Below are positions 27-34,497 of a DNA stretch of 64,000 nucleotides, piece by piece. The translations under genes were made by a program, and so were the position numbers. Position 1 is the stretch's first letter, and each line of letters starts with the position of its first letter. The stretch comes from an uncultured Myxococcales bacterium (lineage in GTDB: Bacteria; Myxococcota_A; UBA9042), in contig CAIMLR010000007.1 of NCBI GenBank assembly GCA_903842345.1, forward strand, positions 62,001 through 126,000. The letters are read 5' to 3'. Below the pieces are notes generated by a model. The model had not been told where the DNA came from and did no database searches. It saw only the letters and a program-made list of their open reading frames with translations.

Positions 27-84
27 TGCTCGTCCATTGTACGCGCGCATCGGTTGCGCCAGATTCGCTGCCCTGAGGTTGCCT

Positions 85-1161
85 ATGTCGCCGTTTCGCC
101 TCGTTCTTCGCTTGTCCCTTGCCAGCCTGACGCTGGCGGCTGCCCTGCCCGCGTGGGCGCAAGCGCCCGAGGTGGATCGCAGCGAAGTGGACGCCAAGAA
201 GAAGGCGACCGAAGAAAAGGAAAAGGCCAAGGCCGCGGCTGCGGCGTCCGTCGTGCAGGAATCGGAGTCGGCGCGCGAGTCCCGGGAAGCGCAGGAGAAA
301 AAGGAACACAACGCCAAGGAAGCGGTCAAGCGTTTCTCAGAAGCATCGGACGCCGCGCGCAAAGGCCAGACGGCGCGTGCGTTGGCGCTTCTCGAGGCGG
401 CAGCCCAGCTGGATCCGTTTCGCCACGAGTTTCCGCTCAACGTGGCGACCGTTGCGGAAGCGCTCAAGCAGCCGGAAACGGAGTTCAAAGCGCTGTCGGC
501 CGCGACGATCCTGCTGAAGCGCGTGCTGGCGCAAGTCGGCGATTCGCCCAAGAAGCCGGAATATGAGGCGCAGTTGAAGAAGGCGGAGAATCGCCTGACG
601 GAGCTGCGCAGCGAGGGCAAAATCGCCACGGGCACCATCCGCCTGTTTGCCGAACCCAAGACGTGCGAAATCTTCCTGGACGGCGTGTACGTCGGCGTAG
701 GCGAAGGCACGATCGAGTCGCTGACCGGCACGCGCAAGGCCGAGACGCGCTGCGTTGGCTTCTACGACTACGAACAGTTCGTCAACGTCCGCGTCGGTGA
801 TCCCACCTCGGCTACGATCAAGCCGAGCGCGGTGCCGTACTTTGGCAAGCTCATCGTGCGCGTGGACCAGACGGACGGGGTCATCACTTTCCTGGACGAC
901 GTGCCGATCGAGCAGCGCCTCGCGGAAAAGCCCACGCAAGACGGCAAGATTTCCGGCAAGGGCACCAAGGCCGAGCCGTACCAACTGGCCGCGCGCAAGT
1001 GGATCATCCGGTTCGCCAAGGAAGGCTACGATCGCTGGCATCGCCGCATCGACATTCACCGCGACGAGACGGTGATGGTCGATGCGCGGCTGGAAGCGCT
1101 TGCGGACACCGAGGATGCGGCGCCGACCAGCGCCATTCCGCCTGCCGCGCCCAAGAAGTAG
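85..1161 (+). CDS. Secreted PEGA/TPR-type protein
   Basis: Exported protein of 358 residues, probably periplasmic. The ATG at 85 is chosen because it gives a clean signal peptide (MSPFRLVLRLSLASL..., cleavage near AWA-QA); an upstream in-frame ATG at 37 would bury it. After the signal comes a Lys/Glu/Ala-rich coiled segment (about residues 30-95), a TPR-like helical part (about 95-180), and a beta-rich C-terminal half with an 'IFLDGVYVG' stretch typical of PEGA domains. PEGA domains are surface or envelope beta modules, often seen in Myxococcota. It is the first gene of an apparent operon, 12 bases before an MlaE-type permease and followed by a BamD-like lipoprotein, so an envelope role is inferred. 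The exact function is unknown. Confidence 0.7.
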   Translation: MSPFRLVLRLSLASLTLAAALPAWAQAPEVDRSEVDAKKKATEEKEKAKAAAAASVVQESESARESREAQEKKEHNAKEAVKRFSEASDAARKGQTARALALLEAAAQLDPFRHEFPLNVATVAEALKQPETEFKALSAATILLKRVLAQVGDSPKKPEYEAQLKKAENRLTELRSEGKIATGTIRLFAEPKTCEIFLDGVYVGVGEGTIESLTGTRKAETRCVGFYDYEQFVNVRVGDPTSATIKPSAVPYFGKLIVRVDQTDGVITFLDDVPIEQRLAEKPTQDGKISGKGTKAEPYQLAARKWIIRFAKEGYDRWHRRIDIHRDETVMVDARLEALADTEDAAPTSAIPPAAPKK

Positions 1162-21906: not shown

Positions 21907-23823
21907 CTACTGGCAGAGCTTCATGCTGCAGAGCAGGAGCGCCTTGGCCGCGGCTGTCGCAGCCGGGTCAGCGGCACACGCGGCCTCACACGCGGGATCC
22001 GCGGCGCACGCGCCCAGGCAAGTGCGTTGCGCCGGGCAGCCGTTGGTAATCTCACACGTCAAGGACGCCTGCAGGCAGAGCGCCGATTCGCATCCCGGTG
22101 CGCACGTCGCGTACTCGGGTGTCGCGGGCACGCATGCCTTGCCCGCCCAGCCGTTGCCGAGGCATTGCGCCGACCGGCACCACTGCACGTTCAACCACAA
22201 CTGCAAGCTCGTCGGGAAGCCGGGCAAGCCCGTGGGCAGCAGGCACGCCGCCTGACACGTCGCGTCCGTGCAGGCATTGGTGCACGTGAGCATCGTTCCG
22301 CAGCCGTCGTCGCCATCCACGCACGCGGTCATCGCGTCGCCGCAGACCTTGGTGGTGCAGGTGCCGATGCACGCGCTGTCCGTGACGTTGCACTGCCCGC
22401 CGCTGACTGGACAGTCCGCTGGGCACGTGCCGCTGGTTTCCGTCGCGCCGCAAATCGTATCGCCGCACGGGCTGCTCGGCTGGCAAATGCCGCCGGTGCA
22501 GCTCTTGCCGGTGCCGCAACCGACGCCGTTGCCCTTGATGGTCCAACTCGGTCCGGCCAGCGCGTCGCAGGCGTCCACGGTGCAGTCGTTGCCATCGTCG
22601 GTCGACACGTCCAGCGAGCCGCCGCACACGCCGCCTGAACACGCTTCCGAGTACGTGCACGCGTTCCCGTCGTTGCACTTGCCCGCGTTGTTCGTGTGCA
22701 GGCAGCCCTTTTTCGGATCGCACGCGTCGTCGGTGCACACGTTGCCGTCGTCACACGCCGTGGCGGGCGGCGTGCAGGTGCCGGCGTTGCACGTTCCGTT
22801 CGGCGCGCAGATGTCGCCGAGCTTGCACGTCGTCGCGGCGTTGGGCGTGTGCGTGCAGCCCGTCCCTGGTACGCAGGCATCGTCGGTGCATTCACTCTTG
22901 TCGTCGCAGACTTTGGGCTTGCCCGCGCATGCGCCGTTGGCTGGATCAATCGCGTTGCAGGCATCCTTCTCCGTGCACGGATCGCCGTCGTCGCACGCCG
23001 CGCCGTCGTAGGCCGCAGTTTGGCAGCCGCCGAGAAAATCGATGCACTTGCTGATGTTGCACGCGTTGCTGTCCGGCGGGCAGGTGACGGGCGTGCCCGT
23101 GCAGACGCCGCTGATGCATTTGTCGCCCGTCGTGCAGTGCGCGTCGCCGTCATCGCACACGGAATTTTCGACCTTGTTGGTCCAAGTGCAGCCCTTGCCG
23201 CTGGCGTCGCACGAGTCCGTTGTGCAGTCGTTCTTGTCATTGCAGACGACGGCGGTGCCTTTGCACGTCGTGTCGACGCAGACATCGCCGACGGTGCACG
23301 CGTTCGCGTCGTCGCAGCCGCACGGCTGGTCCTTTTTGGGGCCGCACGTCTTGGGCACCGGCACTGCTGCGGTCGAGCAGCCGATCGCCGGGTCACAGCT
23401 GTCCACCGTGCAGGGGTTGCCATCGTCGCAGCTCGCCGGCGTCTTGACGCACGCGCCCGCCTTGCAGAGCGCGCTCGCCGCGCACTTGTCGTCAACACCC
23501 ACGCACGGCGAATCGTCCGCCGCCGCCGTGGCCTTGCAAAAGCCGCTCACCGAATCGCACGTCGCCGTGTGGCACGCGTCGTTGTAGCCCGTGCAGTCCG
23601 CGTCGACTTTGCACCCCAACACCGGCACGTCGACCGCGGGCGTATCGCCGCCCGTGTCCTTGCCGTCCGCTTTGCCGTCGTCAGTCGCATCACCGGCCGC
23701 GCCGTCGTCCATCGCGGCATCGTCCACCGCGTCGTCGCCGACCGCAGCCGTCACGTCGCGCCGCGTCGGCAGGCAACCTGTCGCCAGCCCCATCAGCACC
23801 AGCCATGGCAAGATGTGCTTCAT
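21907..23823 (-). CDS. Cysteine-rich repeat lipoprotein (CDDGNxCT type)
   Basis: 638 residues. The start at 23823 gives a lipobox (GLATGC, Cys17). An Asp/Gly/Ala-rich linker follows (about 22-55), then about twelve repeats of the type CDDGNxCTxDxCDxxxGC (about 55-435), then a CGxTxCGxxE...CPxDC repeat, and a C-terminal part with Cys pairs ('CPAQRTCLGACAADPACEA'). Nearly all cysteines are spaced for disulfides, so it is a surface-exposed lipoprotein with a likely structural or adhesive role. The start overlaps the stop of the upstream paralogue (ATGA), and both share the 'DVPVLG' start of the first repeat, so the pair arose by tandem duplication. No catalytic motif. Confidence 0.75.
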   Translation of the reverse strand: MKHILPWLVLMGLATGCLPTRRDVTAAVGDDAVDDAAMDDGAAGDATDDGKADGKDTGGDTPAVDVPVLGCKVDADCTGYNDACHTATCDSVSGFCKATAAADDSPCVGVDDKCAASALCKAGACVKTPASCDDGNPCTVDSCDPAIGCSTAAVPVPKTCGPKKDQPCGCDDANACTVGDVCVDTTCKGTAVVCNDKNDCTTDSCDASGKGCTWTNKVENSVCDDGDAHCTTGDKCISGVCTGTPVTCPPDSNACNISKCIDFLGGCQTAAYDGAACDDGDPCTEKDACNAIDPANGACAGKPKVCDDKSECTDDACVPGTGCTHTPNAATTCKLGDICAPNGTCNAGTCTPPATACDDGNVCTDDACDPKKGCLHTNNAGKCNDGNACTYSEACSGGVCGGSLDVSTDDGNDCTVDACDALAGPSWTIKGNGVGCGTGKSCTGGICQPSSPCGDTICGATETSGTCPADCPVSGGQCNVTDSACIGTCTTKVCGDAMTACVDGDDGCGTMLTCTNACTDATCQAACLLPTGLPGFPTSLQLWLNVQWCRSAQCLGNGWAGKACVPATPEYATCAPGCESALCLQASLTCEITNGCPAQRTCLGACAADPACEAACAADPAATAAAKALLLCSMKLCQ

Positions 23824-25241
23824 TTGGCTTTGCAAATCCCTTGGCTGCAGGCCGAGCTGTTGCCGCAATCCGTGCCGTCCGTCGCCAGCGTGTGGGTGCA
23901 ACCCGCGACCGGATCGCACGCGTCGATGGTGCACGCGTTGGCGTCGTCGCAGTTCACGGGCTTGCCGCCGCACAGTCCGCCGGCGCAGGCGTCGCTGCTG
24001 GTGCAGCCGTTGCCGTCCGTGCACGTCTTGGTGTTGGGCGTGCCGACGCAACCGACGCCGGAAATGCAACTGTCATCCGTGCACGGGTTGCCGTCGTTGC
24101 ACGTGACGACCGTGGCGCTCTTGCACGTCGTCTTGCCGTCGCATTGGCCGTTCACGACGCACGGGTCGCTCGTCGTGCACGGCGTGCCGAGCTTGAGCGT
24201 CGTCTTGTTGTCGCACGTGCCGGTGTTCGCGTCGCATTTGTCCGTCGTGCACGGCTTGTTGTCGTCGCACTTGGACTTGGTCACGCACGTCGGCAGGGCG
24301 ACCGCGTCGGTGCCTGCGACCATCTGGCACGTGCCGGGATTGCACTTGTCCGTGCCGCATCCCACGCCGTCGCCGACGTAGATGTTGTCGCACGCGCCGG
24401 TCAGCCCGTTGGGGCCGTCGGTGGTGCACGGGTTCTTGTCGTCGCAGTCCTTGGGGACGCCGCAGCTGCCGTTGTTGCAGATCGGCGTGTCGGCGGGGTC
24501 GTTGCCGGTGCACGGAACGGACTTGGCCGTGTACGGAAAGCCCTGGTGCGTGCACAGGGACAGCACGCCAAGGGAGATGTCGCCCTTTTCGTTGCACGCG
24601 TCATTGGTGCAAGGTTCGCCGTCGTTGCAGTCCAACTGCGTGCCGACGCACTTCAACGTCGCCGGATCGCAATGGTCGCTCACGGTGCATTGCACGCCGT
24701 CGCTGCAACTGGCGTTGGCGAACGGATGGGAACAGACGCCATTGCCGCACAAATCGAGCGTGCAACCATTGTTGTCGCTGCAGTTCTTGGCCGTGCCGCC
24801 GACGCACGCGCCGCCCGCGTCGCAGGTTTGGCCGACGAGGCACGCGTCACTGTTGCACGGCGCGGCTTCGTCGAACTGCGGTGAATCGCACAAGCCCGTT
24901 TCCGCGTTGCACGTTGGCGTCGCGTGACACGGCAAGGTCGGCAGCGCCGCACAATCGCCCTTGGCCTTGCAGCCCAGCGCGACAGCGTCGCCGAGCACCG
25001 GCACGTCCTGCTCCGTTCCGGTCACATCATCCGCGGTGTCCAGGCTGCCATCCGCCGCGGCGCCGTCGCCCTTGGTGTCGGTCTTGGCGGCATCAGCCGC
25101 GACCGTGTCCACCTTGACGTCCGGCAGCGGATCGTTGGACCGCTCGCCCGGCAGGCAACCTGGCAACGTCAGCGCGACGCCAAACAGCAGCAGCAGCGCA
25201 ACCGGCATGTGGGCATCGAGCAACCGCTGGGCAACGCGCAT
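23820..25241 (-). CDS. Cysteine-rich repeat lipoprotein, paralogue
   Basis: 473 residues; the ATG at 25241 has a GGGAG ribosome binding site, and a downstream ATG (25208) would give a shorter signal with the same lipobox (TLPGC). An Asp/Thr/Ala-rich linker (about 30-75) precedes about twelve CxDxNxCTxDxC repeats that run to the end ('CDDANACTIDACDPVAGC' near the C-terminus). It is shorter than its neighbour and lacks the C-terminal modules. Translationally coupled to the downstream gene. Divergent from the ABC substrate-binding protein with about 156 bases between them. It is likely to be surface-exposed. I do not know its ligand. Confidence 0.75.
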   Translation of the reverse strand: MRVAQRLLDAHMPVALLLLFGVALTLPGCLPGERSNDPLPDVKVDTVAADAAKTDTKGDGAAADGSLDTADDVTGTEQDVPVLGDAVALGCKAKGDCAALPTLPCHATPTCNAETGLCDSPQFDEAAPCNSDACLVGQTCDAGGACVGGTAKNCSDNNGCTLDLCGNGVCSHPFANASCSDGVQCTVSDHCDPATLKCVGTQLDCNDGEPCTNDACNEKGDISLGVLSLCTHQGFPYTAKSVPCTGNDPADTPICNNGSCGVPKDCDDKNPCTTDGPNGLTGACDNIYVGDGVGCGTDKCNPGTCQMVAGTDAVALPTCVTKSKCDDNKPCTTDKCDANTGTCDNKTTLKLGTPCTTSDPCVVNGQCDGKTTCKSATVVTCNDGNPCTDDSCISGVGCVGTPNTKTCTDGNGCTSSDACAGGLCGGKPVNCDDANACTIDACDPVAGCTHTLATDGTDCGNSSACSQGICKAK

Positions 25242-25397
25242 GGAACTCCCAAACTGACCAAGATCATCCAAAGTCCGCCCCAGACGGACTTCTCGCTGCA
25301 GTTTAGCGGGTCGAACGCCGTGCGTCCATTGCCAAAGCCGCGGCAACAACCCAAGATCGCGGTTGCCGCGCCCGATGGCGCCCGTCGGCTGCCCCGC

Positions 25398-27089
25398 ATG
25401 CGTCAGGCTCCCCTGCTCCTGCTCTGCCTCCTGGCCCTGACGTTCCTCGCGCTGGCGTGCGGACGTGAGGCGGATCGCGGCGCGCAGTTGCTGGCGGAGC
25501 GCGTGCCGGCCGAGCGCCATCTGCTTTTTGCCTCAGGCGGAATGGAGTTTCTCGATCCGGCCAAGGTTGCGGAGACCGCCGGGCATCACCTGATGATGAA
25601 TGTGTTTGAAGGGCTGTACGTCTACAACCGCGGCGAAGGTCCGCCGGTGCCGTCGATGGCGACGCGCCACGAAGTGTCAGCGGATGGCAAAACGTGGACG
25701 GTGCACCTGCGGCCGGGCGTGACGTGGTCCGATGGCGTGCCGATCACGGCGCGGGATTTTGTCTGGAGTTGGCGGCGCGTGCTCGATCCGAGGACGGCGT
25801 CCCGCGCGGCGCAGCTGCTGTGGTTCCTCGACGGCGCGCAGGCGTACAACGAGGGCGCGGTCACCGATCCGGAGACCGTGGGCGTGCATGCGTCAGACGA
25901 CCAAACGCTGGTGATTCGGCTCAAGAATCCGACGCCGTTCTTTCTCGACCTGCTCTGCGAGATGCAATACGTGCCGACGCCGCGCCATGTTGTCGAAAAA
26001 TGGGGCGATGCCTGGAGCACGCCGGCGCACATCGTCTCCAACGGTCCGTTCCTGCTGGTCAAGCACGAGAACCGCGTGGTGTCCGAGCTGGTCAAGAATC
26101 CGCGCTACTGGGACGCGCAGGACGTGTGGTTGGACAAAATTACGGTGCTGCACACGGAGTCCGACCAGACCGCGTTTGACTGGTATGAAGTCGGCAAGAC
26201 CCAATGGCAGGGCGACACGTCCCTGCCGGTGGACCGCGCGCCGGGGCTGCGGGCGTCAGGGCGACCGGACTTCCACAGCGATCCCAAATTGTGCTCGTAC
26301 TACTTCAGCGTGCGGGTCGATCGGCCGCCGATGGACGACGTGCGCGTGCGCAAGGCCGTGAATCTGGCGATCGACAAGGAGAGGCTGGCCCTGCACATCC
26401 TGCGCGGCGGCCAGCCGGTGGCGAGCAATACGGTGCCGGATCTGTTCCGCGCCAGCCACGGCTACACGCCGCTTGTCGGCGACGGCTTTGATCCAGAGCG
26501 CGCGCGGCGGTTGTTGGCGGATGCGGGTCACGCCGGCGGTCAGGGTCTCGCGCCGCTTACGCTGTACTTCAACACGGGCGAGGGGCACCGGCTGATCGCG
26601 GAGTTTGTGCAGCGCAACCTCCAGGAGAACCTCGGCGTGCAGGTGCAGCTGGCCAACATGGAGTGGGGCTCGCTGCTCAAGACGCTGCTTGCCGGCGATT
26701 TTGCCATCGGACGGTCGTCCTGGTGCGCGGACTATCCGGATCCACTGACGTTTTTGGAAGTGTTCCACAGCCAGTCCAAGGCCAACTACTCGGGCTACAA
26801 GTCCGCCGAATACGACGGCGTGCTGGCCGCGATCCAGGCGGAAGCCGACATGCAGAAGCGCAATGCCCTGCTCCGACGTGCCGAAGAGATCCTGGATCGC
26901 GATATGCCCCTGACGCCGCTCTACCACTACACCTGGTCCTACCTGCTGCGGCCGTTCGTGCTGGGCTATGAGCGCCACGCGCAGGACATGCATCCGCTGA
27001 AGTACGTGCGCTGGGCCACGCCCGACGAGTGGACGCGCATCCAGCATGGCGCGGTCCTCCATCTGCCGCCGTTGCCGGGAGGCCAGTAG
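25398..27089 (+). CDS. Oligopeptide-type ABC substrate-binding lipoprotein
   Basis: 563 residues. Signal with lipobox LALAC (near residue 21), then an SBP_bac_5 (OppA/DppA family) protein: 'HHLMMNVFEGLYVYNRGEGP', 'WTVHLRPGVTWSDGVPITARD', 'DFVWSWRRVLDP', 'PFFLDLLCEMQYVPTPRHVV' and 'VRKAVNLAIDKERLALHIL'. It would capture a peptide or similar solute outside the inner membrane and deliver it to the permeases. The ATG at 25398 is the one that gives the signal. The next gene follows after 3 bases, so it heads the operon of permeases with unusual insertions. The ligand cannot be predicted. Confidence 0.92.
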   Translation: MRQAPLLLLCLLALTFLALACGREADRGAQLLAERVPAERHLLFASGGMEFLDPAKVAETAGHHLMMNVFEGLYVYNRGEGPPVPSMATRHEVSADGKTWTVHLRPGVTWSDGVPITARDFVWSWRRVLDPRTASRAAQLLWFLDGAQAYNEGAVTDPETVGVHASDDQTLVIRLKNPTPFFLDLLCEMQYVPTPRHVVEKWGDAWSTPAHIVSNGPFLLVKHENRVVSELVKNPRYWDAQDVWLDKITVLHTESDQTAFDWYEVGKTQWQGDTSLPVDRAPGLRASGRPDFHSDPKLCSYYFSVRVDRPPMDDVRVRKAVNLAIDKERLALHILRGGQPVASNTVPDLFRASHGYTPLVGDGFDPERARRLLADAGHAGGQGLAPLTLYFNTGEGHRLIAEFVQRNLQENLGVQVQLANMEWGSLLKTLLAGDFAIGRSSWCADYPDPLTFLEVFHSQSKANYSGYKSAEYDGVLAAIQAEADMQKRNALLRRAEEILDRDMPLTPLYHYTWSYLLRPFVLGYERHAQDMHPLKYVRWATPDEWTRIQHGAVLHLPPLPGGQ

Positions 27090-27092
27090 CTC

Positions 27093-28250
27093 ATGGCGCG
27101 TTTCCTGCTGCGGCGGCTGCTGGCTGGCTTTGTGACCCTGTGGGTTGTCGCGTCGCTGTCGTTTGGCCTCATGCGGCTGGCGCCGGGCGGGCCGTTCCAG
27201 CGCGACAAGCCGCTGGCGCCGGCCGTGGAAGCGAACCTGCGGCGGACGTTTGGCCTGGCGGCGGATGTGCCGAGCCCGGTCGCGGGAACGCTGGTGCGGT
27301 TTCTCGTCAAGCCGGGGCAGCACGTGCTGGAGCGCCAGCCAGTCGCGGAAATTCGCTTGCAGAACGGCCAGATGACACAGCCTTCGGCCGTCGCAGATCT
27401 CGAGGTCATCGCGCTCACGGGCACCCCAGGCCGCGTGCTGCGCGCCGGCGATCCCCTGCTCACGCGCGCGACGTCGGGCTGGGCGCAATACCGCCACGCC
27501 ATGTGGAGCTACGCGCATCTCGATTTTGGCGTGACCTATGCGTCCGAGGGCACGGAGACGGTCATGGCCACGTTGGCCAAGGCCTTTCCGGTGTCGCTGG
27601 AGCTCGGTTTTCTCGCGCTCCTGCTCGCGCTGCTGCTCGGCGTGTCGGCGGGCCTCGTCTCAGGCCTCTATCCCAACAGCCGCTTGGATCACGTGGCGAT
27701 GACGGGCGCGCTGCTGGCGGTTTCCATGTCGTCCATCGTCCTCGGACCGCTGCTCAAGCTGATCTTCTGCGTGCAACTGCGCTGGTTTGACGTCGGCGGT
27801 TGGCAGCCGCTCGCCCTCGATTGGCCGCACGTCCAAGTCAAGATCCTGCCCGTGCTCACGCTGGGCCTCATCTACGCCGCGTGGTTCGCGCGGCTGACGC
27901 GCGCCGGGATGCTGGAAGTCGTGCGCCAGGATTTCGTGCGGACCGCGCGCGCCAAGGGCCTGCCAGAACGCCTCGTCGTGCTGCGCCACGCTTTTCGCGC
28001 CGCAATCCTGCCGGTCGTCAGCTTCCTCGGTCCGGCGCTGGCGGGCATCGTCACGGGTTCGACGGTCATCGAGCAGGTGTTCCAGGTGCCCGGCGTCGGC
28101 GAGTTCTTCGTCACGTCGGCCGTCAACCGCGACTATCCGATGGTGATGGGCACGGTCGTGCTGTATTCGTCGCTGCTGATCCTCGCCAATCTGTTCGTCG
28201 ACCTGCTGCAAGCGGCGCTCGACCCGCGCGTGCGGGGGGACCATGGCTGA
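27093..28250 (+). CDS. OppB/DppB-type permease with lipoyl-like insertion
   Basis: 385 residues. The core is a binding-protein-dependent permease: TM1 at 9-29 ('FVTLWVVASLSFGLM'), the family order 'LELGFLALLLALLLGVSAG', and the EAA loop near 'RTARAKGLPERLVVLRHAFR'. In DppB-like proteins the first long helix is followed by 'LGLDxP' and then directly by 'WxxYLxxL...GDLG'. Here 'TFGLAAD' and 'WAQYRHAMWSYAHLDFG' are separated by about 70 extra residues (about 58-128), which read like a biotinyl/lipoyl or HlyD barrel-sandwich: 'SPVAGTLVRFLVKPGQHVLE' then 'RVLRAGDPLL'. No target Lys is at the hinge. Overlaps the next gene by 8 bases. Confidence 0.85.
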   Translation: MARFLLRRLLAGFVTLWVVASLSFGLMRLAPGGPFQRDKPLAPAVEANLRRTFGLAADVPSPVAGTLVRFLVKPGQHVLERQPVAEIRLQNGQMTQPSAVADLEVIALTGTPGRVLRAGDPLLTRATSGWAQYRHAMWSYAHLDFGVTYASEGTETVMATLAKAFPVSLELGFLALLLALLLGVSAGLVSGLYPNSRLDHVAMTGALLAVSMSSIVLGPLLKLIFCVQLRWFDVGGWQPLALDWPHVQVKILPVLTLGLIYAAWFARLTRAGMLEVVRQDFVRTARAKGLPERLVVLRHAFRAAILPVVSFLGPALAGIVTGSTVIEQVFQVPGVGEFFVTSAVNRDYPMVMGTVVLYSSLLILANLFVDLLQAALDPRVRGDHG

Positions 28251-29595
28251 CCGCAGCCCGACACGGGAAGCCTTCCTGCGTTTTCGCGCCAATCGCCGCG
28301 CGTGGTTCGGCGCGTGGTTCGTCGGCGCCGTCGGGGTGTGCGGTCTGCTGGCGCCGGTCATCAGCCAGCACGTCCTGCATTTCTCCGAGGATGAGCAGCA
28401 CACGTTTTGGGTGTTTGCGCCGCCGGGCACGCAGGACGTCGCCATCGACTATCCGACCTACGACGGCGACAAAGCCGCATTTGCGCGTCTGGATCTGGAC
28501 CGCGATGGCAAGCTGACCTGCGCGCGCACCGCGACGGGCGTGCATTGCCCCGAACTGGAGACCGCGTGGTGGGCGGAGCGCTTCTTCGCGTTCCTGCACG
28601 ACCTGAAGGACACCGCGCAGGGCCACGATCCGCCCGTGGCGGGCAAGCGCGCGCCGGACGGCCGGATCAGCCCGCAGGAATACCCGCAGCACCCCAGCGA
28701 TTGGCACGATCCGCGCGTCGCCGACGCCGTGCAGCGCCTTGGCCTGTTCGGTCCGCCGGGTTTTGCCCTGGTGGACGCCGATCACGACGGCTTTCTCAGC
28801 CGCCAGGAGGTCATCAGCCAGACGCGCTGGTCGCGCCTGCAGCAGAACCAACTCCTGCGCGATTTCGATGCGAACGGCGATCTGGCGATCGACCGCGGCG
28901 AATTTCCCGGCCAGCCGGAATTGCACACGCTGTGGCTCGGCACCGACCAGAAAGGCCGCGACTTGCTGGCGCGGCTGCTGTTTGGCGCGCGCGTGTCGCT
29001 GGCCATCGCGCTCCTGGCGACGCTCATCAGCGTGCTCATCGGCGTCAGCTATGGCGCGCTCTCCGGCTGGCTGGGCGGCCGCTGGGATGAGCTGATGATG
29101 CGCATCGTGGACGTGCTCTACGGCCTCCCGTTTCTCTTCCTTGTGATCCTGCTGCTCGTTGTCGCTGGCCGATCGACGGTCAATCTGTTCGTCGCGCTGG
29201 GCGCGGTGTCCTGGCTCTCCATGGCGCGCATCGTCCGCGGTCAGGTGCTGAGCTTGCGGCGGCGGCCGTTTGTGGAAGCGGCGGTGGCGATGGGCGTTGG
29301 GCAGGCGCGGATTCTGTGGCGCCACATTCTGCCCAACGCGCTGGGGCCGATTGTCGTCTACGCGACGCTTTCCGTGCCGGCGGTGATCATTGAAGAGGCT
29401 TTTCTGAGCTTCCTCGGGCTGGGCGTGCAGCCGCCCGCGGCGTCGTGGGGCACGCTGATTTCTGAAGGCGCGCGGCTGATGGCGCAGCATCCGTGGCTGA
29501 TCCTGTATCCGGGAACGCTGCTGACGTTGACGCTCTTTGCGCTGCACTTCGTCGGCGATGGCCTGCGGGATGCCGTCGATCCCCGAGGAGACTAG
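28243..29595 (+). CDS. OppC/DppC-type permease with EF-hand insertion
   Basis: 450 residues. TM1 is at about 21-42, and the family core starts at 'LWLGTDQKGRDLLARLLFGA' (about 230-249), followed by five membrane helices and the EAA loop ('AAVAMGVGQARILWRHILPN'). Between TM1 and the core lie about 180 residues that contain four EF-hand-like loops: DLDRDGKLTCAR (84-95), KRAPDGRISPQE (135-146), DADHDGFLSRQE (178-189) and DANGDLAIDRGE (209-220). The third is canonical, the fourth nearly so, the first two lack acidic ligands. By the positive-inside layout, this region lies outside the inner membrane. Calcium binding is inferred. There is no ATPase gene downstream. Confidence 0.87.
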   Translation: MADRSPTREAFLRFRANRRAWFGAWFVGAVGVCGLLAPVISQHVLHFSEDEQHTFWVFAPPGTQDVAIDYPTYDGDKAAFARLDLDRDGKLTCARTATGVHCPELETAWWAERFFAFLHDLKDTAQGHDPPVAGKRAPDGRISPQEYPQHPSDWHDPRVADAVQRLGLFGPPGFALVDADHDGFLSRQEVISQTRWSRLQQNQLLRDFDANGDLAIDRGEFPGQPELHTLWLGTDQKGRDLLARLLFGARVSLAIALLATLISVLIGVSYGALSGWLGGRWDELMMRIVDVLYGLPFLFLVILLLVVAGRSTVNLFVALGAVSWLSMARIVRGQVLSLRRRPFVEAAVAMGVGQARILWRHILPNALGPIVVYATLSVPAVIIEEAFLSFLGLGVQPPAASWGTLISEGARLMAQHPWLILYPGTLLTLTLFALHFVGDGLRDAVDPRGD

Positions 29596-31575: not shown

Positions 31576-31647
31576 CTGCGCCTCACCGGGGCGCGGTTGT
31601 ACCCGACACCCTTGCACTTCCACAACGCTTGGCACAGGATCTCACCG

Positions 31648-34497
31648 ATGACTACGCCCGCACCAACGCCGCCAACTCCGAACGATTCTAACGATCTGCA
31701 GCCGCTGGCCACCGCGCCGCTGCGTCAGGCGTCGCTGGGTACGCAGCCGGGCGCGGATCGCTGGACGGACGTCGATTTGGCGCACGTGACGGGCATGGTC
31801 GACAACCCGGGCCTCTTCCTGCGCCTCTTCGCGTGGATCTTCTTCAAACCGGTCACTTTTCCGGTGCCGCAGATCCAGAAGCTCAAGGAACTGTCCCACG
31901 AAGGCGTCCTCGTCTACACGATGCGCACGACCAGCCTGCTGGACTACCTTTACTTCAATTACGTCTTTCGCGACGCTGAGTTGCCGCTGGCGCATTTTTC
32001 CAACGGCGCGTCGATGCTGGCTTTCCAGCCGTGGCGCCGGGCGATCGCCGGCTGGTTCCGCCGCCGTGTGCTGCGCAAACCGCAGCCGCCGGAAGTGGAG
32101 GTGCTGTTTGGCCATTTGCGTCGCAAGCACGCGGTGTTGCTGTTCCAGCACCGGGTTTTCAGCCTGCTGGACCTGATCAACCAGAAGCCCGACGATCCGT
32201 ACCTCGCGGAGCTGATCGAAGCACAGCGCACGCTGCCCTTTCCCATCCTGCTGGCGCCGCAACTGATTGTTTGGGAACGCGATCCAGAGCGCAGCAAGAC
32301 GCGCATCATCGACGAATTCTTTGGCGATCCGGACGCGCCGGGGCGTTTTCGCAAGCTGCTGAGCTTCATCCTGAATCATCGCCGCGCGTTCGTGCAGTCG
32401 GGCGAGCCGGTGAACGTCCAGGCGTTCCTGAATGCGCACCCCCATCACCACGATGATCGCCTGCTTGCGGAAGTGCTGCGGCTGCAGGTCGACCAGTCGT
32501 TCCAGACCGAGCAGCGCGTCATCCGCGGCGCGCCGATCAAGCCGCCCAAACAGCTGCGCGAGGAGATCCTGGACGATCCGGAAGTCGTGCGCGATTTGGC
32601 GCGGCTGGCGGAGGAGACCAAGCAGTCCGTCGCGGAAGTGCGCGCGGAGGCGGACGAAAACCTGAAAGAAATCGCGGCCGACTACAGCATGGGGATGCTC
32701 AGCGCGTTGTCGCTGTTCCTGACGCTGCTCTGGGCGCGGATCTATGAGGGCATCGAAGTGGACGAGCCGGGTATGGAGCGCATCCGCGAGGCCGGCCGCA
32801 AGTCGCCCATCGTGATCGTGCCGAGCCACAAGAGCCACATCGACTACCTGCTGATCAGCTACCTCTTCTATCGCAACGGCTTGATTCCACCGCATATTGC
32901 CGCGGGTTCCAACCTGTCGTTCTTCCCGCTCGGCATCATCTTCCGCGGGTCCGGCGCGTTTTTCCTGCGCCGCAGCTTCCAAGGCCAGCCGATCTACGCC
33001 ACGATCTTCCGCCACTATTTCCGCAAGTTGATCCGCGACGGCCACTGGCTGGAATTCTTCCTGGAAGGCGGACGGTCGCGCACGGGCAAGCTGCTGCCGC
33101 CCAAGTTTGGCCTGCTCAAGCACGTGATGGAGGCGGTCGCCGATGGCCTGCAGCCGGACGTGGTGCTGATGCCGACCAACTTTGGCTATGAGCGGCTGAT
33201 CGAGGAAAAGTCCTACCGCAAGGAGCTGGAAGGCGGCGAAAAGAAAGCGGAGTCGCCGGTAGAAGTGCTGAAAGCGACTTCCGTGCTCGTGCACAAGTAC
33301 GGCCGCATTCGCATCCAGTTCGGTCAGCCGATGTCGGTGCGGGAGATCCTCGCCGAGAGCAACGCGCTGATGCCCGCCGCGACGCGCGACGCCAAGGCGT
33401 TTGACCGGGCGCTGAAGGTCTGCGGCTATCGCATCCTCGGCGGCATCAATGCTGCGGCGGTGATCACGCCGACGTCCATCGTCGCCGCGGTGCTGTTGAC
33501 CAAAGTGCAGCGCGGCATCTCGCGGGCGGACCTGCTCGTGCGCGTGGGCTTCCTGTTGGACATCGCGAGCCGGCGCGGCGCGGTGTTGTCCGAGACGCTG
33601 GAGACGGCGATCCGCGTGCGGCGGGCGCATCTGGTCGAGGCTGAGAACGCCGATCTGTCCCGCCACTTCGAGTCAGGCGGCATTCCGGAGCCGCTGGGCA
33701 AGACGGGTGAGCGCTCCCGCCGGATGGGCCAAGCCGTGGAGTCGATCGTCGATGAAGTGCTGAAGATGTTCGAAGCCGCCAAGTGGGTGCATGTGCGGCG
33801 TTTTGACGATCAGGACATCTACATCACCAAGACGGAAGGTCGACTGCATCTGGACTACTACAAGAACAACATGCTGCACCTCTTTGTGCCGGACGCGTTG
33901 CTGGCGTCCAGCGTGCTGGCGCTGCAAGTCCAGGCGGACCTGATCGATCCTGAAGAACTGAGCGACATGACCAAGTTCCTCTCGCGGGTCCTGAAATTCG
34001 AGTTCGTGTACGCCCCGGGCGTGTCCTTTGAGCAGATGTACGGCGACACGCTGCAGGACTTTCTGGCGTCCAGTTGGCTGGTGCGCGAGCCCAGCGGCAA
34101 GCTGCGGCTGCGGCCCACTGTGCTGCCGGTGGTGCGGCTGTACGCGAAGTTGGTGCAGAACTTCATCGAATCCTACGCGCTGATGGGCCGGGCGCTTTCC
34201 GCGCTGCAGAAGGGGCCGATGGCCGAGAAGGATTTCCTTGAGCACGTCCAAACGGAAGCGGCAAAGGCCTTTGAGCTCGGCGACGTACAGTGCTACGAGG
34301 CGGTGTCGCGCGTGAACCTCGGCAATGCGCTGAAGATCTTCGTGGAGCAGCGGTTCGTGCGGTCGTACTCGGAACAGGTCGGCAAGAAACGCGTCAAGAT
34401 GCTGACCGTTGAGCACGGCGAAGGAACTGGCGTGCAATTGGCGGGTTACGTGCAGCGCATTCGCGATCTGGCGGCGCCTTGGGGCCTCGATCGCTAG
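31648..34497 (+). CDS. plsB: Glycerol-3-phosphate acyltransferase PlsB
   Basis: 949 residues, longer than the about 810 residues of E. coli PlsB. The acyltransferase blocks are clear: block I 'VPSHKSHIDYLLISYLFYR' (HxxxxD near residue 393), block II 'FLRRSFQGQPIYA', block III 'LEFFLEGGRSRTGKLLPPK' and block IV 'VVLMPTNFGYERLIEEKSYR'. The N-terminal 330 residues and the C-terminal 300 match the PlsB long form. It transfers an acyl chain to sn-1 of glycerol 3-phosphate at the inner membrane, the first step of phospholipid synthesis. The ATG at 31648 follows an AGGA site. Divergent from the MBL-like/lipid-kinase pair, so the region groups lipid functions. Confidence 0.93.
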   Translation: MTTPAPTPPTPNDSNDLQPLATAPLRQASLGTQPGADRWTDVDLAHVTGMVDNPGLFLRLFAWIFFKPVTFPVPQIQKLKELSHEGVLVYTMRTTSLLDYLYFNYVFRDAELPLAHFSNGASMLAFQPWRRAIAGWFRRRVLRKPQPPEVEVLFGHLRRKHAVLLFQHRVFSLLDLINQKPDDPYLAELIEAQRTLPFPILLAPQLIVWERDPERSKTRIIDEFFGDPDAPGRFRKLLSFILNHRRAFVQSGEPVNVQAFLNAHPHHHDDRLLAEVLRLQVDQSFQTEQRVIRGAPIKPPKQLREEILDDPEVVRDLARLAEETKQSVAEVRAEADENLKEIAADYSMGMLSALSLFLTLLWARIYEGIEVDEPGMERIREAGRKSPIVIVPSHKSHIDYLLISYLFYRNGLIPPHIAAGSNLSFFPLGIIFRGSGAFFLRRSFQGQPIYATIFRHYFRKLIRDGHWLEFFLEGGRSRTGKLLPPKFGLLKHVMEAVADGLQPDVVLMPTNFGYERLIEEKSYRKELEGGEKKAESPVEVLKATSVLVHKYGRIRIQFGQPMSVREILAESNALMPAATRDAKAFDRALKVCGYRILGGINAAAVITPTSIVAAVLLTKVQRGISRADLLVRVGFLLDIASRRGAVLSETLETAIRVRRAHLVEAENADLSRHFESGGIPEPLGKTGERSRRMGQAVESIVDEVLKMFEAAKWVHVRRFDDQDIYITKTEGRLHLDYYKNNMLHLFVPDALLASSVLALQVQADLIDPEELSDMTKFLSRVLKFEFVYAPGVSFEQMYGDTLQDFLASSWLVREPSGKLRLRPTVLPVVRLYAKLVQNFIESYALMGRALSALQKGPMAEKDFLEHVQTEAAKAFELGDVQCYEAVSRVNLGNALKIFVEQRFVRSYSEQVGKKRVKMLTVEHGEGTGVQLAGYVQRIRDLAAPWGLDR

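Follow-up and report, generated by a model that had tools for sequence, protein, structure and literature searches.

The first periplasmic loop of an OppC-type peptide permease of Myxococcota holds a predicted four-EF-hand domain

We found that the OppC-type permease encoded in the window (the whole stretch of 64,000 nucleotides analyzed here) carries an insert that is, by its sequence and its modeled structure, a four-EF-hand domain of calmodulin- or lanmodulin-like type and that probably binds Ca2+. The reading that we prefer, with a probability of roughly 0.55, is that the insert, stabilized by Ca2+ and held rigidly to the permease core, serves as a docking module for OppA; calcium would then be mainly structural. 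Four-EF-hand domains on transporters are known already (PMC6283063), as are EF-hand-like sites in the binding proteins of ABC importers (PMC5717064). The papers that we searched, mostly outside subscription journals, contained no EF-hand domain in the permease subunit of a binding-protein-dependent importer and no Ca2+ sensor in the transmembrane subunit of one, and within that literature the earlier note's remark that no permease with such an insertion had been described still stands.

The gene oppC is a single uninterrupted open reading frame of 450 aa, the start codon of which overlaps the end of oppB (Table 1). Pfam assigned OppC_N to residues 5 to 46 and BPD_transp_1 to residues 267 to 448; among the NCBIfam models, the OppC model matched best (E value = 1.3e-81, under that model's whole-protein cut-off), and the nearest PDB chain was the E. 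coli OppC structure 8z21, to which the permease core was 54% identical over 217 alignment columns (Foldseek match). All the marks tested were present (OppC_N, the LGTDxxGRD segment, and the BPD_transp_1 core), and the protein is, on these marks, the permease subunit of an otherwise ordinary, predicted oligopeptide ABC importer. Known OppC and DppC proteins have a short linker between TM1 and TM2, whereas the OppC of the window has about 175 extra residues, of EF-hand type, between membrane helix 1 and the LGTDxxGRD core, which begins at residue 229. As had been claimed for ordinary Opp permeases, only a short linker occupies this site in E. coli OppC (L114) and in the insert-less myxococcal OppC orthologs (families f17, f18, f23, f31, f35, and f38); the limits of the insert were set from these short linkers. 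The TM1-TM2 region of DppC is periplasmic (PMC12136057), and by homology, the placement of the OppC insert on the outer face comes close to being shown; the retained cysteine pair C93/C102 was also counted toward this position. An artifact or frameshift was ruled out, as congeners keep the insert and its pN/pS ratio is below 0.3.

Table 1. Positions in the window of the oppABC genes, the two inserted domains, and the four EF-hand loops
Feature	Position	Strand	Details
OppA-like binding protein	25398..27089	+	lipoprotein-type signal (LALAC/G); SBP_bac_5 5.9e-84
OppB permease, 385 aa	27093..28250	+	BPD_transp_1 2.5e-37
OppB insert, biotinyl/lipoyl-like barrel-sandwich	27264..27458, residues 58-122	+	Biotin_lipoyl; PDB profile
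OppC permease	28243..29595	+	
Inserted EF-hand domain (predicted)	28402..28920, residues ~54-226	+	between TM1 and the LGTDxxGRD core
EF loop 1	28492..28554	+	D84-L-D86-R-D88-G-K-L-T92-C93 (8 residues) C102-P-E104
EF loop 2	28609..28680	+	expanded, partial: D123 ... D139-G140 ... E146
EF loop 3	28774..28809, residues 178-189	+	DADHDGFLSRQE; canonical, complete; best Pfam stretch
EF loop 4	28867..28902, residues 209-220	+	DANGDLAIDRGE; complete, best conserved loop

Next, we looked at the identity of the insert. Three Pfam models exceeded their gathering scores in the whole protein (EF-hand_5, E value = 1.7e-8; EF-hand_1, 2.7e-8; EF-hand_6, 4.2e-7), and EF-hand_5 reached 2.9e-10 with the insert on its own; EF-hand matches were also obtained in 10 of 12 OppC homologs and in 13/13 relatives. 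A whole-genome scan with Pfam EF-hand_7 returned nothing significant, which is not evidence of absence, as the shorter EF models do match. A profile built from 27 inserts aligned in a single stretch with calmodulin residues 11 to 142, across all four EF hands (E value of about 1e-10). The insertion of an EF-hand region into an OppC-type permease, which had been proposed from the letters alone, is thus real.

The full-length OppC model was poor in its membrane part (mean pLDDT of 64.6), and we therefore modeled residues 46 to 231 separately with AlphaFold2 (12 sequences), which gave a confident structure (pLDDT of 86, pTM of 0.80). Helices were predicted at residues 77 to 83, 103 to 122, 170 to 177, 187 to 193, and 201 to 208 and short strands at 90 to 92, 141 to 142, 185 to 186, and 215 to 217, a pattern that agrees with the helix-loop-helix units and short beta bridges of the EF-hand fold, except that no helix was predicted past EF4. 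The top 50 Foldseek matches of this model consisted almost entirely of EF-hand proteins and of kinases with EF hands, each match being weak (E value of 0.05 to 0.65), and the best VIA structural match had a Z of 5.3. A fold search with the full OppC model returned mostly permeases, with calmodulin only at an E value of ~1.5. Since no single fold match is strong, the overall packing would differ from that of calmodulin. Four collinear EF loops are common to the insert and to calmodulin and other four-EF-hand proteins; unlike those of calmodulin, the EF hands of OppC belong to a membrane protein and lie on the outside of the cell membrane, the EF1 loop of the window is broken by a cysteine-bracketed insertion, and the EF1 and EF2 loops of the relatives lie too close together for canonical pairing.

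The four loops differ in completeness and conservation. Read as residues 84 to 95, as the earlier note had it, EF1 seems to be without Glu12; alignment to insertion-free relatives sets E104 at position 12, displaced by an in-loop insertion, and we therefore counted the loop as complete. No class-type row lacked D1 or E12 of EF1 (13/13 had both), even though some of these rows have long insertions in the loop, and C93, C102, P103, and E104 were invariant in 12 sequences. The helix that follows the insertion begins at residue 103 in the insert model, and the insertion is probably closed by a C93-C102 disulfide; three relatives (L093, L101, and L111) have neither the cysteines nor the insertion. 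In the lineage of L073 and L099, a long cysteine-rich stretch lies between the halves of the EF1 loop. The second loop, which had been placed at residues 135 to 146, proved partial: D123, D139, and E146 were invariant in 12 sequences, and of the canonical ligands the window has D139 and E146 only; the missing D1 and D3 are present in families f19, f30, and f48.

EF3 and EF4 were both complete, in keeping with the earlier ranking of the loops, which erred in that the best-conserved loop is the fourth and not the third. EF3 is kept in the class and in families f19, f30, and f48 and is lost in family f5. EF4 has an unusual Leu at position 6, where Gly is expected. Its D1, D5, and E12 (D164, D168, and E175 of alignment A1) were invariant in 20 diverse sequences that were 28 to 84% identical to the insert of the window, and exactly 13 residues, without indels, separated its E12 from the G of GTD in 37/37 sequences. 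Families f30 and f48 (L074, L075, L076, and L083) have four near-canonical loops, for example, DTNGDGQVTTVE, DVDGDGALSAAE, DEDGDGRVVMEE, and DKDGDRRLAAAE. EF4 is degenerate in L089 and L091. In family f5 (L105 to L108), EF1 to EF3 are degenerate and EF4 is canonical, with a stretch bearing a conserved cysteine pair in place of EF3. The degenerate loops of some relatives indicate that not all members need all sites.

Adjacent loops are separated in the relatives by 13 (EF1-EF2), at least 18 (EF2-EF3), and 19 to 20 residues (EF3-EF4) and in the OppC of the window by 18, 31, and 19 residues. Lanmodulin is spaced by 12 to 13 residues between adjacent EF hands, not ~25, and pairs EF2 with EF3 and EF1 with EF4 (PMC10232371). 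The short EF1-EF2 spacing is thus common to lanmodulin and the relatives of the insert, whose profile gave a gapless 49-residue alignment to lanmodulin as its best natural match, above all natural calmodulins; the NCBIfam LanM model matched 13/13 relatives (best E value = 3.3e-10). In both calmodulin and troponin C, VIA matched single EF pairs to OppC residues 108 to 198 (EF2 and EF3). The loop spacing argues against calmodulin-type sequential pairs (1-2 and 3-4), and the aligned ranges favor EF2:EF3; together, the spacing and the structural matches suggest a nested pairing of EF1 with EF4 and of EF2 with EF3, as in lanmodulin. We rejected membership of the lanmodulin family itself: the Pro at position 2 that marks lanmodulin was absent from every loop inspected, the EF2-EF3 and EF3-EF4 spacings were longer, and the member shown scored 24.6 bits against the LanM model, far short of the curated cut-off of 135 bits. 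Lanmodulin, which is periplasmic in its own host, is moreover a free protein of under 200 residues, whereas the EF-hand insert is a portion of a permease.

We then considered the distribution and history of the insert. It was kept in all four congeners (78 to 84% identity) and occurred throughout the class of the window and in other families of Myxococcota, which excludes chance, already thought unlikely when the insert was first noticed. The insert profile matched 73 of 379 Myxococcota genomes at an E value of ≤1e-3, a count that takes in some generic EF-hand proteins. Apart from one record that bears the title Klebsiella pneumoniae, the named relatives with the insert were Myxococcales metagenome-assembled genomes (MAGs); that record (L068, CAMDBH010000039.1) holds an oppABC cluster of myxococcal type and is evidently a mislabeled MAG. 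No relatives of the insert were found in plasmid records. In a tree of the OppC core, the 48 EF-bearing rows formed one group (84/90), implying one change, and this group adjoined E. coli OppC, apart from the insert-less paralogs of the same genomes. When the insert-less orthologs were included, the tree implied two changes (short search, modest support), which a single gain of the insert and its loss in f17 would account for. These trees suggest that the insert was gained once and perhaps lost later, with one or few origins in Myxococcota. The pN/pS ratio was 0.17 to 0.29 for the insert versus 0.05 to 0.09 for the core, i.e., nonsynonymous evolution was about two to five times faster in the insert; the insert is therefore under purifying selection, which is weaker than that on the core.

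The genes oppA and oppB lie upstream of oppC, in the order oppA-oppB-oppC that is also found in E. coli OppBCDF and DppABCDF and in M. tuberculosis OppABCD; downstream of oppC is a diacylglycerol-kinase-like gene on the opposite strand. Like the E. coli and M. tuberculosis importers, the genome of the window has separate OppD/OppF ATPases with oligo_HPY ends. In contrast to the known Opp and Dpp systems, its oppDF genes are on another contig: the two oligo_HPY ATPases, the only ones in the genome, are neighbors on contig 27 (L094:3882-5883), away from oppABC and next to a ribosomal protein S1-like gene. Elsewhere in the window, the minus strand at 21907 to 25520 holds two long open reading frames for cysteine-rich proteins that have many CDDGNPCT-type repeats and are probably secreted or located at the surface, and a 966-aa open reading frame near the operon, at 31597 to 34497, has GPAT_C and Acyltransferase (glycerol-3-phosphate acyltransferase) domains.

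OppB has an insert of its own. Biotin_lipoyl matched 10/11 of the homologous OppB segments (best E value = 8e-7), and a profile of the insert matched lipoyl and biotinyl domains in the PDB (best E value = 7.4e-14, to a lipoyl protein). The alignment of OppB inserts showed no conserved lysine, which indicates a relative of the fold and not a carrier domain. The insert starts directly after the counterpart of the scoop motif of DppB, a motif that contacts DppA (PMC12136057). At least seven EF-bearing systems have an OppB of normal length (L075, L076, L083, L086, L088, L110, and L112), so that the two insertions arose independently; the earlier note had taken their pairing as an argument against chance, and that argument falls.

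These observations bear on what the insert does. In the reading that we prefer, Ca2+ would bind at EF1, EF3, and EF4, and possibly at the expanded EF2 too, and at the levels found in the periplasm it would keep the EF-hand domain folded. The domain would flank the site at which OppA docks and form a platform or lateral wall there, holding OppA and helping to close off the translocation mouth, and the short, constant link from EF4 to the core would act as a rigid joint. Such a role would parallel, by analogy, that of the extra periplasmic domain of MalF toward the maltose-binding protein. MalF P2 of the maltose importer is a large additional periplasmic permease domain of a type I importer that lies beside the binding protein; its fold is unrelated to that of the OppC insert, it has no calcium, and it occupies a different permease loop. 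Precedents for contacts of this kind are the DppB scoop motif, which touches DppA (PMC12136057), and the Ca2+ site by which AlgQ2 meets the alginate importer (PMC5717064). As a rule, calcium is plentiful in the periplasm, where its level tracks that of the medium, and most of the time an EF hand would be saturated there. Together with the piecemeal loss of sites in some lineages, these high levels led us to prefer a structural role for calcium.

The same considerations weigh against a calcium-gated importer, in which binding and release of Ca2+ would reshape a sensor and the 13-residue link between EF4 and LGTDxxGRD would open or close peptide uptake. A four-EF-hand architecture does resemble that of regulatory proteins, and the invariant EF4 ligands and indel-free link would suit such a device, but an EF hand in the periplasm would usually be saturated, individual lineages have lost sites while keeping the insert, and no regulatory context was found; we regard gating as possible but rather unlikely. 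The fuller version, an ABC importer gated by extracellular Ca2+ through a lanmodulin-like, nested four-EF-hand sensor in the first periplasmic loop of OppC, is doubtful and a little less probable still. We also considered that the insert, derived from EF hands, now serves in most species as a scaffold independent of metal, its acidic loops being relics. The ligands lost from EF2 in the class of the window and from EF1 to EF3 in family f5 are consistent with this, as is the faster nonsynonymous evolution of the insert; however, EF4 retains D1, D5, and E12 down to 28% identity, EF1 retains its Glu12 even where the loop carries long insertions, and four near-complete loops persist in f30 and f48, which makes relic loops quite improbable.

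The insert might instead attach the importer not to OppA but to some other part of the envelope, be it peptidoglycan, a peptide receptor of the outer membrane, or a protease, which would suit a separate outer domain that is predicted to fold independently. The independent insert of OppB in many of these systems, which marks the outer face as a site of repeated additions, would fit as well, but the adjoining genes (oppA, oppB, and the diacylglycerol-kinase-like gene) show no apparent partner, and we judge such an attachment very unlikely. Least probable of all is a lanmodulin-like selectivity for lanthanides or another metal over Ca2+, tying metal supply to the uptake of peptides or metal-chelating peptides, which the 13-residue EF1-EF2 gap, the gapless alignment, and the LanM matches of the relatives would favor and which the absence of Pro at position 2, a position 9 that is mostly Ser, Thr, or Ala, the EF3-EF4 spacing, and the low LanM score of the member shown oppose.

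Two further kinds of known system are comparable to the OppC-type permease described here. In the mitochondrial ATP-Mg/Pi carrier (SCaMC), four EF hands form a domain that is joined to a transporter (PMC6283063); it is an unrelated carrier with an N-terminal fusion and an established calcium regulation, whereas the OppC insert is internal and its regulation by calcium is hypothetical. In the alginate importer, AlgQ2 meets the permease at an EF-hand-like Ca2+ site (PMC5717064); AlgQ2 and Smon0123 each have a single EF-like loop, and it is in the binding protein, whereas the EF hands of the window are in the permease.

Peptide importers are among the best-studied ABC systems, yet an EF-hand domain in one was not seen in the papers searched. 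The cysteine-bracketed interruption of EF1, together with a lanmodulin-like spacing outside the lanmodulins, bears on the evolution of EF-hand domains. Should calcium prove important in this system, a textbook importer would have acquired an ion input at its outer face, and a role of calcium in bacteria would become testable at a defined site, with the insert-less orthologs as natural controls; the question that could then be put to experiment is whether calcium controls peptide uptake or only props it up.
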